A program made the translations under genes and the position numbers. A stretch of 54,692 nucleotides of DNA from Synechococcales cyanobacterium bin2.concoct.b11b12b14.033 (GTDB lineage: Bacteria > Cyanobacteriota > Vampirovibrionia > Caenarcaniphilales > Caenarcanaceae). The DNA is taken from positions 1-54,692 of the forward strand of contig JAAFJH010000004.1 in the NCBI GenBank assembly GCA_013298875.1. The letters run 5' to 3'. Shown piece after piece: positions 647 through 43,086 of the stretch; the stretch's first letter is position 1, and the number at the start of each line of letters is the position of its first letter. The notes under the pieces are model-generated. The model was not told the DNA's origin. It made no database searches and saw nothing but the letters and a program-made list of their open reading frames with translations.

Positions 647-1213
647 TTAAATTTTGGAAGCTTGAATGGTAAAAGTGCCAGTATAATCACCGGGTCTGTC
701 TTCGAAAGAAATACTACTTTCATCAATATCTCCAATAATCTCAATATCAGATTGCCAACCCAAATTGGTAGAAATGGGGCTTTTTTTTAATTTAACCCCT
801 GACTTTCCACTATTTTTGCTTACCACTTGAGTTCCAATTAAACCTCTTAAATCCATAGTAATTTCTGAGTAGCCATTAGTCAGCTTTAGCGGATTTGGAG
901 AAACTTCAACTAAAATACCATTATTCCCATTACAACGGCTTGTTGGGCAATTGGTATAAATAGCACCATTAATTTGATAATCATTAGTTTGTTGTTTTCC
1001 TTTCTTCCAGTTAAAAGAGTCAAGATTTCTGGACAATTTGCTAGGACCAACTAATGAATTATAAAGCTGACCGCCGGCTTTATTTGAATTGATTGAGATT
1101 AAAAAGATTAACGGTACATTAATAGAGTCGGCTTGGGCAGAAGAGCTAAAAAAAGAGCTGAAAAAGCTGACGCTAAAGATTGAAAACCAAATTAATTTAA
1201 TTGAATTATTCAT
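647..1213 (-). CDS. Secreted hypothetical protein, possible pilus/spore-coat-like beta-sandwich
   Basis: N-terminal signal-like segment, C-terminal PGDYTGTFTIQAS motif; divergent from the next CDS. Confidence 0.6.
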   Translation of the reverse strand: MNNSIKLIWFSIFSVSFFSSFFSSSAQADSINVPLIFLISINSNKAGGQLYNSLVGPSKLSRNLDSFNWKKGKQQTNDYQINGAIYTNCPTSRCNGNNGILVEVSPNPLKLTNGYSEITMDLRGLIGTQVVSKNSGKSGVKLKKSPISTNLGWQSDIEIIGDIDESSISFEDRPGDYTGTFTIQASKI

Positions 1214-1259
1214 TTTAGAATTGGGTTTAAATTACTCAGATAGTATCTTTATATTTAAT

Positions 1260-1796
1260 ATGCTCAGATTTTCATCTTTTTTCCTGTTGATTTTTATATT
1301 TAGTTCAAATTTATTTTCCAATTCCAGTTGGGCTGCTAAACCTGAAAATAGTAAAACCGAAAACCAGGCAATTAAACAGACTAATCATGTTTTTTGGGTA
1401 AATTTTTTAAAAAACGTCAGTAAAAATGATTATTATTTAAGCCCCGCCGAGATAATGTCGGGAGAAGTAAATACAAGCCGACCTAATATACGAATTATCG
1501 GCAATTTAGTTTTACGGTCACCTAATTCAGTCAGCAAATGTATTGTTAGATTACCATCTTCGCAAATCAATGCTATTAACTCAGAAACTAAGCAAATAAT
1601 CAAAATTAACTTAAAAGGAAATATTGGCAATAAAGCCTTATCCACTGAGTTTGTAAATCCAGAATTTGATCAATCTTTAATTGCACCTTTTGAAATAGAA
1701 GGTTATGTAGATTCGTTTTCGCTCAAAGATGGCTTAGCTCCTGGGGATTATGATTATAGTGATAATTTAAAATTAATTGTTGAATTTCAGGATTAA
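1260..1796 (+). CDS. Secreted hypothetical protein, similar architecture to the divergent neighbour
   Basis: Internal ATG at 1260 gives signal peptide MLRFSSFFLLIFIFSSNLFSNSSWA; C-terminal APGDYDYSDNLKLIVEF. Confidence 0.6.
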   Translation: MLRFSSFFLLIFIFSSNLFSNSSWAAKPENSKTENQAIKQTNHVFWVNFLKNVSKNDYYLSPAEIMSGEVNTSRPNIRIIGNLVLRSPNSVSKCIVRLPSSQINAINSETKQIIKINLKGNIGNKALSTEFVNPEFDQSLIAPFEIEGYVDSFSLKDGLAPGDYDYSDNLKLIVEFQD

Positions 1797-1800
1797 TTAA

Positions 1801-1917
1801 ATAAAAACAAATTTAACCGCTTTCCAAAAGCTCACTCATAGTTTTTTAATATTTTATTTTATGTTGGTCAGCCACCGGCAAATAATCGAGCCGCTCCCAA
1901 AGCTTGTTCTAAAATAA
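1801..1917 (-). pseudogene. Partial degenerate duplicate of the recG 3' end
   Basis: Near-identical to 2834-2974 (accgctttccaaaagctcactcat... attttattttatgttggYcagccaccggcaaat ... ccgctcccaaagcttgttctaaaata), with about 26 bp missing between two GGCAAAT/GGGCAAAT repeats. Confidence 0.85.
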
Positions 1918-1996
1918 ATCTATAAAATTATTTGAAAATAGCTAAGAGTATTGATACAATCTTTTTTAAATCGTAAATATATTAAAAAATTTAATA

Positions 1997-2833
1997 ATGA
2001 AAACAATTCAACGGGTAGGACAGTTTTTGGGAAATGCTTATAACCCACTCATTCAAGATTTAAAGCGTTTACCTTCGGTAGCAAAATTTGGGGTTGATGC
2101 TTTAAAAGAGCCTAAATCTTCCAGAATAGCAAGAATGCAAGAAGTTACAGAATTATTAGGTGAAGCGGCTAAAAATCCTATTAAACGTACTTCTGTAGGT
2201 CAATTTATAAGAGCATTAAAATCAGCTCATCCTGAGAGATTACCAGTTGGTGATAATATAGAATTTGGGAAATTACCTTTACCATTGCAAGCAGCAATTA
2301 AATATATGGCAAAAGAAGGTAGCCCAGCAAGGCAGCAAGAATTAGAATTCTCGGAAGATGTTGTTAAGCTTATAATTGATACTTGTGAGAAAAAATCAGT
2401 AAGCTCTAAAGAAACCCAGGGTCATATTTCTTATGAAGATTATTGTCAAAATTATTTTGAATTGTTTTCTAACGGAGATATTATAAAAAATGCTTATAAT
2501 CCAACATACCAATTAGGTCGTGCTTTAGGCAGATTTTCCTATAAATTTACCGAAGACATACAAACAAAAATACGTATGTTACAAATTAGCGATACCTTTA
2601 ATTTTAATAATGTTCATAAAAAGGATGGAGGAAAAAGCTACTTTTCCTTAGTTTCTCCTTTCATTCCAGAGGCGGTATTAGCATTGAAGGGACAATTAAA
2701 TACACCAATTGGATTAGAATCAGCTGGATTGACTGGAGCTATCATGGTAGGAAATCCTTATATAGCAGCCAGAAAGCTTCTTCCTTATTTAGGAGAACCT
2801 TTTGATATAAATTTGACAATCCCTTTGAAATAA
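1997..2833 (+). CDS. Hypothetical protein (278 aa)
   Basis: Long ORF with ATG start, lying between two copies of the recG 3' end. Confidence 0.65.
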   Translation: MKTIQRVGQFLGNAYNPLIQDLKRLPSVAKFGVDALKEPKSSRIARMQEVTELLGEAAKNPIKRTSVGQFIRALKSAHPERLPVGDNIEFGKLPLPLQAAIKYMAKEGSPARQQELEFSEDVVKLIIDTCEKKSVSSKETQGHISYEDYCQNYFELFSNGDIIKNAYNPTYQLGRALGRFSYKFTEDIQTKIRMLQISDTFNFNNVHKKDGGKSYFSLVSPFIPEAVLALKGQLNTPIGLESAGLTGAIMVGNPYIAARKLLPYLGEPFDINLTIPLK

Positions 2834-2844
2834 TAAAGACAAAT

Positions 2845-5358
2845 CTAACCGCTTTCCAAAAGCTCACTCATCGTTTTTAAATATTTTATTTTATGTTGGC
2901 CAGCCACCGGCAAATCTTCCAGCTTATATTCTTGGGCAAATAACCTGGCGGCTCCCAAAGCTTGTTCTAAAATATCACCTTGATTAACCAAACTGTTTAA
3001 GGCAAAATCCGATAAACCGCTTTGTCGTGTACCAATTAATTCACCCGGCCCTCTTAATTCCAAATCTTTTTGGGCAATAATAAAGCCATTTTCAGTTAAT
3101 TCCATTATTTTTAGCCGTTCTAAGCTAGTAGCTGATTTCCCATCTCCGAATAAAAAACAATAAGACTGCTCTCCGCCACGCCCCACACGACCTCTTAATT
3201 GATGTAATTGAGCTAAGCCAAACCTTTCAGCATTTTCAATAATCATAATAGTTGCATTGGGTACATCAACTCCTACTTCAATAACAGTAGTTCCGATTAA
3301 AAGCTGGATTTCATTATTCCGAAAGTCTCGCATTACTTTTTCTTTTTCGTCGGGCGATAATTTACCGTGAATAATACCAATTTTATAATCTGCATAAGTT
3401 TTTTCAAGCTTAATAGCTTCTTCAGTTATAGCTTTAGCGGAAATGGTTTCAGACTCTTCAATTAGTGGATAAACAATATAAGCTTGTCGGCCGGCAGATA
3501 ATTGTTTTTTGACAAATTCGTGAGCAGGCCTTCTTTGTGGGCTGGGTATAATTTTGGTTTTAATTGGTTTACGGCCTGGCGGCAATTCATCAATTTCGGA
3601 TAAGTCTAAGCTGCCATACATAGTTAAAGCTAAGGTTCGTGGAATCGGAGTGGCTGTCATATGCAAGCAATCAATAAAGTCAAATTCATTACTATTTCCT
3701 TTTTTACGTAATAAATCTCTTTGCTTAACGCCAAAGCGGTGCTGTTCATCGATAATTACTAAACCTAAATTATCAAAATCCACTCCTTCTTGTATCAAAG
3801 CATGAGTACCAACCACCAATTGAATTTGGCCATTCGCTAAACCAGCTAAGGTATCTCTTCTTTCCGCCACTTTTTGCGAGCCAATTAATAAACCAACTCT
3901 TAAGTTTAAAGGCAAAATTAATTCCTGAAATTTACGAAAATGTTGTTCAGCCAAAATCTCAGTCGGAGCCATTAAAGCCGCTTGTTGATTTCTTTCAATC
4001 GCAGATAACATACACAATAAAGCCACAATGGTTTTACCACTACCAACATCGCCTTGCACCAATCTATTCATCGGGATTGATTTACTTAAATCAGCAATAA
4101 TTTCATTAAATACTCTTTTTTGAGCCTTAGTTAATTCAAAGGGTAAATTTTGTAAAAGCTTATTGACATAACCATCTGGGCTTAAATTCAAAATACGTTT
4201 AATTGATTGGCTGTCAGAAAGCTCCAAACTTTGCGATTTTGTATAGCGTTTCAAAGCTAAAGGCAATTGTAAAAAGAAAAATTCTTCAAAAATAATACGG
4301 TTTTTAGCTTTTTCTAAACCTTCGGCCGAAGCCGGGAAATGCATTTCTTCAATTGACTCAATCAAATTATTTAAATGGTATTTTTGTTTTAAATCATCGG
4401 TTAAAGTTTCTTGAATAATTGGTTTATACTTTTCAAGGTTTTTTTTGATAATTCGCCTTAATCTTATTTGCGATAAACCCTCAGTTAAACCATAAATAGG
4501 CACCATGCAGGCTAATTCAATATTATTTTGCTCGGGTATTTGTCCAATGCCTTCAGTGCTTTCTTCGAGGATTTGCGTCGAAAAATTAGTTAATTGATAA
4601 CGGGTTTGCCTGTCAAACTGCACTCGCCCCGAAGCTATAATTAAAGCCCCCAGCGGAAATTGTTTTTTATATTGTTCAGCCAAAAACTTACCCGAACGAC
4701 CCGCAATAAACTTGTTAAGGCTGATTGTGCCAGTTGAGTCGGTAATATGAACGCTAAAAATTAATAAATTAGCATTGCGTGGGCTGGCGAAAATATTGAC
4801 TTTGCTGATGGTGCCAATAATAGTTACGTCTTCACTGGCTTTAACTTCTTTAATATATAATTTTTTACTAAAGTCCAAATGCTCACGTGGCCAATAAAAT
4901 AACAAATCTTGAACGGTAAAAATATTTAATTTGTTTAAAGTTTTAGCTAATAAAGGCCCAACTCCAGCAGCCCACTTAATTTCAGTTTCCCAAATTGATT
5001 CTTTTCTAAATTTGATTTCTTTTTCGGCCTTAATAGTTTCTGATGGCTCTTCCATTAACTCTTTTGGTGAGTCCAAATCATGTTTGAGTGTATTTAAAAA
5101 TTTTTTACTTTCTTTAATAATTTCTAAGCGGGCAAAAATGTCTAAATTGGCATAAAGTTTATATTTTTCTTTTAAATTTACGGCTCCATACAAATCATGA
5201 TTTACAAATAAAGTTTTAAATGAGTCGTGCATGAATAATGCAAAAGTTTGGCTATGACCATCTAAATTAATAAACTTTGCTTTCTCCTCTAATTCAAGAG
5301 CTTTTTGCATTTTTTTGGTTAGTAAATTTAAATTATTGGTCTGATTCACAGCTTTCAA
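2845..5358 (-). CDS. recG: ATP-dependent DNA helicase RecG
   Basis: MNRLVQGDVGSGKT, DEQHRFGV, HMTATPIPRTLALT, QLRGRVGRG; wedge domain and length fit. Confidence 0.96.
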   Translation of the reverse strand: MKAVNQTNNLNLLTKKMQKALELEEKAKFINLDGHSQTFALFMHDSFKTLFVNHDLYGAVNLKEKYKLYANLDIFARLEIIKESKKFLNTLKHDLDSPKELMEEPSETIKAEKEIKFRKESIWETEIKWAAGVGPLLAKTLNKLNIFTVQDLLFYWPREHLDFSKKLYIKEVKASEDVTIIGTISKVNIFASPRNANLLIFSVHITDSTGTISLNKFIAGRSGKFLAEQYKKQFPLGALIIASGRVQFDRQTRYQLTNFSTQILEESTEGIGQIPEQNNIELACMVPIYGLTEGLSQIRLRRIIKKNLEKYKPIIQETLTDDLKQKYHLNNLIESIEEMHFPASAEGLEKAKNRIIFEEFFFLQLPLALKRYTKSQSLELSDSQSIKRILNLSPDGYVNKLLQNLPFELTKAQKRVFNEIIADLSKSIPMNRLVQGDVGSGKTIVALLCMLSAIERNQQAALMAPTEILAEQHFRKFQELILPLNLRVGLLIGSQKVAERRDTLAGLANGQIQLVVGTHALIQEGVDFDNLGLVIIDEQHRFGVKQRDLLRKKGNSNEFDFIDCLHMTATPIPRTLALTMYGSLDLSEIDELPPGRKPIKTKIIPSPQRRPAHEFVKKQLSAGRQAYIVYPLIEESETISAKAITEEAIKLEKTYADYKIGIIHGKLSPDEKEKVMRDFRNNEIQLLIGTTVIEVGVDVPNATIMIIENAERFGLAQLHQLRGRVGRGGEQSYCFLFGDGKSATSLERLKIMELTENGFIIAQKDLELRGPGELIGTRQSGLSDFALNSLVNQGDILEQALGAARLFAQEYKLEDLPVAGQHKIKYLKTMSELLESG

Positions 5359-9529: not shown

Positions 9530-9751
9530 ATGAATAAAGATCAAGCACAAGTAGAGATTTTCAATATTGCCTTTAACTCTCTGCCGGGAGAAGCGAGAGA
9601 TACTTTATTTATTGAACTTGCTAAAAATTACTCTGAAGAAGACTTAGAAGATTTAATTGATAGAGTAATTATTTCTCTGCGGAAGAATGATTCTACCAGT
9701 TCGCTAAAAGATTCTTTGGAGCAGAGAGGTTTTAGTTTGAATGACATATGA
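9530..9751 (+). CDS. Putative antitoxin of RelE/ParE-type module
   Basis: 73 aa ORF overlapping the downstream toxin ORF by 11 nt. Confidence 0.6.
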   Translation: MNKDQAQVEIFNIAFNSLPGEARDTLFIELAKNYSEEDLEDLIDRVIISLRKNDSTSSLKDSLEQRGFSLNDI

Positions 9752-9998
9752 AGTCAAAATTACAAAAAGAGCAAATAAAGAACTATCAGAGCTTTCTGAC
9801 GAATTAGCAAAAAGAATTTTTAGAGCAATTTATAATCTATCTAATGAGCCAAGACCAAATGGCTGTAAAAAGTTAAAGGCTGCTGAGAATGAATATAGGC
9901 TAAGAATTGGAGATTATAGAATTTTGTATTTAATTGAGGATTCCATTAAAATAGTAGAAGTTTTTAAAGTTGGACACCGAAGGAATATTTATGATTAA
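9741..9998 (+). CDS. RelE/ParE superfamily toxin
   Basis: MTYEVKITKRANKELSEL...YRLRIGDYRILYLIEDSIKIVEVFKVGHRRNIYD, classic RelE signature. Confidence 0.9.
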   Translation: MTYEVKITKRANKELSELSDELAKRIFRAIYNLSNEPRPNGCKKLKAAENEYRLRIGDYRILYLIEDSIKIVEVFKVGHRRNIYD

Positions 9999-14050: not shown

Positions 14051-14190
14051 GATTTTTAGGATTAAATGAATTTTAGGATTTTCCACATTTCGCCAATTTG
14101 CCTTTTGAGTCAAGACTTTCAATTCATCAATAAATAATATTTTACAAATCCTGTTAATCTTTGAATCCTGTAAATCGTGTTCAGACGATT
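14036..14190. repeat. Inverted repeat pair (about 47 nt arms, about 61 bp apart) with GTCTGAA...GGATT motifs
   Basis: GATTGTCTGAATTAAGATTTTTAGGATTAAATGAATTTTAGGATTTT (14036-14082) versus reverse complement of 14144-14190, AATCGTCTGAACACGATTTACAGGATTCAAAGATTAACAGGATTTGT. Confidence 0.75.
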
Positions 14191-14371
14191 AATTGAAAAT
14201 TTGTAATTGCTTTAAAATTAATTTGTACAATGAATCTGAAATTTCTTTATGTCTTGGAATGGGAGCTGATTTATTTGTCTGAGGATTATAATAAATATCA
14301 TGATTTCCACCATTACGTTTTAAAAGGCATCCTAAGCGTTCAAGATTTTTTACAATTTCTTGCCTTTTCAT
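14189..14371 (-). CDS. hicA: HicA-type toxin (mRNA interferase)
   Basis: MKRQEIVKNLERLGCLLKRNGGNHDIYYNPQTNKSAPIPRHKEI, HicA G-x-H core. Confidence 0.9.
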   Translation of the reverse strand: MKRQEIVKNLERLGCLLKRNGGNHDIYYNPQTNKSAPIPRHKEISDSLYKLILKQLQIFN

Positions 14372-14571: not shown

Positions 14572-14670
14572 TAAAATTCAATTGATTTTATATTTTTAAT
14601 TACTTAAATTATACCTATTTTTTTCAATTATTATAATTTCCGGCTGAATCACAGATAGACCTAAACTGTC

Positions 14671-14780
14671 TTGAACTCTGATTACACCGATTAAATGATG
14701 AACTATGATTTTTATTTTTACGGTTTTACTCTAAAGTGCTTAATCATGGTAATCCCTAAATCATTTTAATCAGAGCTCAA
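14671..14780. repeat. GATT-rich imperfect palindrome (40-nt arms, about 30-nt loop)
   Basis: ttgaactctgattacaccgattaaatgatgaactatgatt (14671-14710) pairs with taatcatggtaatccctaaatcattttaatcagagctcaa (14741-14780). Confidence 0.8.

Positions 14781-41593: not shown

Positions 41594-43086
<1,493 letters not shown>

Follow-up and report, generated by a model that had tools for sequence, protein, structure and literature searches.

The window, the whole 54,692-nucleotide stretch of DNA analyzed here, belongs to a Candidatus Caenarcaniphilales MAG (G000), a non-photosynthetic relative of cyanobacteria. Close to its left end, the 3' end of recG is found twice in direct orientation, and a single orphan open reading frame (ORF) lies between the two copies. 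The features of the locus are the following.

1260-1796, plus strand: left neighbor, an ORF for a 178-aa secreted-type protein with relatives in the four other family members but without a Pfam match above cut-off, and with a stop 3 bp short of the outer copy
1800-1916, no strand assigned: outer copy of the recG 3' tail, a remnant with a frameshift and an internal stop, 92% identical to 2832-2974 with one 26-bp deletion
1877-1883, no strand assigned: GGCAAAT, the single copy remaining at the 26-bp deletion according to the gap analysis; the inner repeat has two (2909-2915 and 2935-2941)
1917-2831, plus strand: proposed inserted segment, 915 bp between the copies, for whose ORF neither the congener nor other family members gave a match
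1932-1960, plus strand: promoter-like site TTGAAA-17-TACAAT with a TG extension (consensus scan), within the proposed insert and 36 bp before the ORF
1997-2833, plus strand: 278-aa orphan ORF, the putative cargo, recognized as an ORF and by codon usage; its stop extends by two bases into the inner repeat
2832-2974, no strand assigned: inner copy, the functional recG 3' end plus 13 bp downstream, delimited by alignment; its new coding changes are silent relative to the congener
2845-5358, minus strand: recG, intact, 837 aa, with the Pfam domains RecG_wedge, DEAD, Helicase_C and RecG_dom3_C and 85% identity to the congener

The duplication of the recG 3' end, which had been claimed from the letters of the window, is real. 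A base-by-base alignment of the outer copy (117 bp) with the inner copy (143 bp) gave 108 identities out of 117, or 92% apart from the gap, and the pair scored 131 bits when the maximum reached by 300 random 117-mers from the window was 46 bits. In a self-comparison, it was the strongest direct pair in the first 7 kb of the window. The two copies were confirmed but their extent had to be corrected, with the start of the outer copy moved to about 1800 and that of the inner copy to 2832. The repeat starts 13 bp 3' of the recG stop. The original prediction was right that the outer copy retains a recG-like stop (TAA at 1813-1815, with TAG at 2845-2847 in the inner copy) and that it has lost about 26 bp between GGCAAAT repeats. 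Exactly one deletion of 26 bp separates the copies, it is located in the outer one, and there are eight equivalent placements of the gap, which reveals the 7-bp GGCAAAT repeat at the deletion. No RNA or tRNA target was found within the repeat. Whole-genome matches to the repeat were limited to these two copies; a family-wide dispersed repeat, named beforehand as the finding that would speak against an event at recG, was rejected because G000 has copies in cis only. Duplication during assembly was also ruled out as the source of the two copies, as they differ by 8% and one deletion.

To polarize the changes between the two tails, we used as outgroup the recG of the congener, Candidatus Caenarcaniphilales isolate ZE-3nov15-135 (G001), and read the assignments by hand from the alignments. 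Six of the eight coding differences between the tails are silent in the recG frame. Four of the eight are new in the inner tail and all of these are silent, one being the change of the stop from TAA to TAG. The other four are new in the outer tail, where they comprise one nonsense change, one missense change and two changes in one arginine codon, and the 26-bp deletion shifts the frame in this copy. This comparison of substitution patterns, which had been proposed along with the duplication, fits what a functional end (inner) and a free remnant (outer) should show. Both tails share bases that differ from the congener and are closer to each other than to the G001 recG, indicating that they separated after the species split or derive from lineages closer than the congener.

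The 278-aa ORF looks coding. Its codon usage score is 0.22 for a window median of 0.27, with the other frames ranging from -0.25 to 0.13, and the longest ORF obtained in 20 shuffles (182 aa) was shorter than 278 aa. Its TAA stop occupies 2831-2833, and the inner repeat supplies the last two bases. In the consensus scan, the number of promoter-like sites in the region was at chance level. No credible homolog of the protein was found in Pfam, NCBIfam, PADLOC, PHROGs, PDB, phages, plasmids, IMG/VR or GTDB r220, and the gene was missing from the other 381 genomes of the class (382 searched); five weak matches in class genomes were rejected, being to DapA, flagellin and another unrelated protein. 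Restriction families gave no match to the ORF, and AlphaFold run on the single sequence returned a pLDDT of 35. No transposase, integrase or recombinase was found in the segment between the copies, whose only ORF has no family match. The original prediction of a lone ORF of no recognized family was thus confirmed by codon usage, shuffles and database searches, its statement that no integrase is present held, and the protein search that it recommended yielded no relative in any collection searched. Our guess, by analogy with many of the other cargos described below, is that this gene may be a small selfish or defense gene.

On the left side of the locus, malic enzyme had been taken for the direct neighbor of the outer copy. 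This was not the case, as a divergent pair of genes (188 aa and 178 aa) is located between the two. The pair, which encodes small secreted-type proteins and spans window positions 647-1796 (the 188-aa gene at 647-1213, minus strand), has no Pfam family and occurs as a pair in G001 and G004 as well. In the congener, recG has a single tail with no second tail alongside, and the 278-aa gene is absent. This recG follows a kdsA-like gene (as read from the ORF), and the gene after it is ParA-like and shows, at its N-terminus, a weak match of restriction type; the gene downstream of recG differs in each of five family members. The comparison of the recG junction in relatives therefore supports the proposed event to the extent that neither the 278-aa gene nor a second tail beside recG is present in the congener, but no empty recG site with this left flank turned up, as the 178-aa gene and recG are on different contigs there. 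RecG has diverged by 15% between G000 and G001 (85% identity) and gene order is rearranged between them, so that most flank pairs are not comparable; both assemblies are fragmented. In G001, a 59-bp stretch behind serA (L034 1501-1562, G001:C62:4407-4468) repeats the recG tail of that genome at 93% identity and precedes a 273-aa coiled-coil-like ORF; no recG tail copy was found behind serA in G000. With a tail behind serA in G001 and one at recG in G000, recG tails are duplicated in both species, at different places. In another family member, two orphan genes flanked by a 61-bp direct repeat lie within ~2.4 kb on the downstream side of recG (L222 17831-19355, G003:C1).

The recG locus is not isolated, and its architecture recurs at many places in these genomes. 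Self-comparison was applied to ~1.1 Mb from four family members, including 423 kb of G000 and 321 kb of G001, with the further members G002 and G003, and to controls of 400 kb each (0.8 Mb) from G006 and G008, two genomes of other families of the class. Pairs were retained if they measured 36-400 bp, were 250-8000 bp apart and did not fall within one ORF. The numbers of direct and inverted pairs were 13 and 0 in G000, 23 and 3 in G001, 4 and 2 in G003, and 5 and 1 in G002, making 45 direct versus 6 inverted pairs in the family samples. The controls gave 6 and 0 (G006) and 3 and 0 (G008), with paralogous genes accounting for nearly all of these pairs. When the pairs were sorted by hand and only non-paralogous repeats enclosing genes were retained, ~20 loci remained in the 1.1 Mb of family sequence versus at most one (L198) in the 0.8 Mb of controls, rates that are rough because of the hand sorting and because contigs were chosen partly by weak matches. 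At the family loci, direct duplications of ~40-200 bp, mostly of gene ends, flank lineage-specific genes.

The cargo set is rich in selfish and defense genes. By Pfam, it contains an Eco47II-type endonuclease with a C5 methyltransferase (at carB), a C5 methyltransferase with an AAA/DUF2326 gene (at apt), McrBC with a C5 methyltransferase, an N6/N4 methyltransferase with an Mrr domain, the RelB-YafQ and HicBA pairs, and genes matching PIN, NYN, PDDEXK_3, PDDEXK_2 (PD-(D/E)XK), ORF6N, Bro-N, S51 peptidase and a TPR protein; orphan genes are also among the cargos. The target names apt, carB, uvrC, chaperonin-like and serA are readings of ORF translations. The apt 3' end is duplicated around the C5 methyltransferase cluster, and an apt-linked methyltransferase is present in both species. 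A chaperonin-like 3' end is duplicated around RelB-YafQ, with three copies in G000 and one at the congener locus. HicBA is enclosed by a 52-bp duplication, and McrBC with its C5 methyltransferase by one of 44 bp.

At carB, it is the 5' end that is duplicated, over 93 bp, around the Eco47II-type restriction system (L161 9958-12456, G001:C1). The endonuclease and carB both begin with MPK, and the carB duplication thus appears to have supplied the start region. Both G001 copies map to one stretch of G000 (L241 1781-1884), with the right flank at 2325 and neither the methyltransferase nor the endonuclease at this stretch. This is the best, if approximate, empty site within the genus, most other flanks being on different contigs of the congener. 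The uvrC 3' end occurs four times in G001 (L165 2664-7675, G001:C14), and the stretches separating these copies hold ORF6N, Bro-N, PIN and S51 peptidase genes. In G000, a second uvrC tail that has diverged more (73%) lies behind another orphan gene (L243). The uvrC end is likely an insertion hotspot used in both species. Several of the family repeats are 97-100% identical and represent recent events, those at L162, L142, L168 and L223 being at 97-98%; assembly duplication could be the source of some identical repeats elsewhere, for example at L147.

We favor, with a probability of about 0.68, an explanation in which a 915-bp segment inserted at the recG 3' end and ~143 bp of the target were duplicated directly on both sides, an "insertion with long target duplication" as most likely also applies to the toxin-antitoxin and restriction genes elsewhere in the family. 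We infer this by analogy, because the 178-aa gene and recG of the congener are on different contigs, and the single insertion event and its route are likewise inferred. The same repeat-cargo-repeat architecture around other genes in the family, and the excess of direct over inverted pairs, argue for it. A counterpoint is the G001 recG tail behind serA, which indicates that recG tails can also move as fragments. Of the original prediction, the cassette insertion leaving a duplicated recG 3' end would therefore stand as the best reading, in agreement with a congener that has neither the cargo gene nor the extra tail, but its analogy with att sites and integrases fails, as no recombinase is present and the repeats vary in sequence and length and also cover 5' ends.

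Gene order around recG is rearranged, with a different downstream gene in each of the five members, and the stray G001 tail behind serA adjoins a different orphan gene. Together with the six silent coding differences, which look as if both copies had been coding for a while, this could point to a cassette acquired from a related strain where the 278-aa gene already adjoined recG. We consider such a donor unlikely, although it deserves some weight: recG identity to the congener has no clear step that would mark a donor segment, the two tails resemble each other more than the G001 recG, and a first insertion in the donor would still be needed. Integrative elements with an integrase rebuild the 3' end of a tRNA or protein gene, and the recG locus is like them in that a gene 3' end is duplicated on both sides of an insert. 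If the recG 3' end were an attachment site at which an element, or its relic, rebuilds the gene end, then the reuse of ends with different cargos, as for uvrC in both species, would also be explained. This is improbable, however, as the insert has no integrase or recombinase and its sole ORF has no family match. The other family repeats are each their own target's sequence, of variable length (~40-200 bp) and in some cases covering gene starts, and a common att core was not found across the insertions.

The original prediction had offered tandem duplication followed by decay as its alternative, that is, duplication of the 278-aa gene with the recG tail, then loss of one copy of the gene and decay of the outer tail. 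It would yield the same layout, and tandem duplications are present in these genomes (L150, L173), yet it demands two events and a prior 278-aa gene beside recG, which is seen in no relative, and no second remnant of the gene is found to the left of the outer tail. With this extra step, it fares poorly here and we give it little credence. The least plausible case is a rearrangement scar, with the outer tail left when breakage and rejoining joined the 178-aa gene to recG and the 278-aa gene arriving separately. The adjacency of the 178-aa gene and recG is indeed not conserved, and there is a synteny breakpoint here, but an inversion gives inverted duplications where these are direct, and the same direct layout recurs around cargo genes.

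In an insertion with long target duplication, the segment 1917-2831, with its possible promoter and one orphan gene, would have entered at the recG 3' end in the G000 lineage, and about 143 bp of the target would have been copied in direct orientation, one copy on each side. As the duplication spans the gene end, recG would have remained whole on one side, leaving the other copy free to decay. The most likely route would be illegitimate integration of incoming DNA, for example through natural transformation, since no transposase or recombinase is present, and template switching back upstream of the departure point could produce direct duplications of any length. ComEC is found in all five family members, which lends weak support to transformation because the gene is common across bacteria (it is also in 10 of 14 control genomes). 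Products that spare both neighboring genes would be retained by selection in so tightly packed a genome, which would account for the involvement of gene ends without a targeting enzyme. A broader and more tentative model, possible but on balance doubtful, is that the family has an active recombinase-free route that adds defense, toxin-antitoxin and orphan genes at housekeeping gene ends with target duplications of 40-200 bp. The reused ends, that of uvrC in both species and the recG tails at two sites, might then serve as docking sites, with recombination between the repeats allowing cargos to be stacked and exchanged.

The closest known counterpart is the insertion with long target duplication of Nobusato et al. 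(2000, Gene 259:99-108), for which later articles describe host sequence duplicated over long and variable lengths with no recombinase involved (PMC1643837, PMC3874152, PMC3031569), mainly for restriction-modification genes of Helicobacter pylori (PMC1643837, PMC3874152). The recG locus shares with it a non-transposon, strain-specific cargo, direct host duplications on the order of 100 bp and the absence of a recombinase. In contrast to the H. pylori cases, the recG cargo is an orphan gene rather than a restriction-modification system (frequent there, not defining), the family cargos also include toxin-antitoxin, PIN, NYN and PD-(D/E)XK genes, and insertion is repeated at the same gene end. 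The HpyII/HpyAII restriction system has an 80-bp flanking repeat, and recombination removes or restores it (Aras et al. 2001, cited in PMC7494987). Direct flanking repeats should likewise allow excision or replacement of the cargo here, but the outer recG copy has decayed. Homology-facilitated illegitimate recombination, a process seen in the laboratory that can insert foreign DNA without a recombinase (PMC3240628), is also similar. Transposed genes of Arabidopsis lie between direct repeats whose sequence comes from the host, is mostly genic and is present at the orthologous site of a relative (PMC2869330). They too are moved genes between repeats of host genic sequence, but in a plant nuclear genome, and are explained there by recombination of circles (PMC2869330).

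How genes move without a transposase of their own has been an open question since long target duplications were seen around the H. pylori restriction genes. The main interest of the present observations is the family-wide abundance of such duplications and the reuse of the same gene ends, since a lineage with many events, several of them recent, offers cases in which junctions can be read, empty sites found and mechanisms tested. It also suggests a practical search rule, by which an orphan gene found between two copies of a gene end, like the 278-aa gene here, is a candidate for a new selfish or defense gene.

Other repeats and toxin genes were seen along the way. A dispersed intergenic repeat of ~130 bp lies at window positions 14638-14779 (also L149 and L159), beside a HicA toxin gene (14189-14371) with a HicB-like partner. 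The window also has a ParE-family toxin gene (9741-9998), and the small ORF preceding it (9530-9751), with no Pfam match, is probably the antitoxin. A repeat of ~285 bp, mostly at 86-98% identity, is dispersed over many contigs of the congener (for example L058 10927-11212) and is possibly a MITE-like element. A complete 16S rRNA gene (Rfam RF00177), which would permit the MAG to be placed exactly, is located at 41594-43083 of the window.
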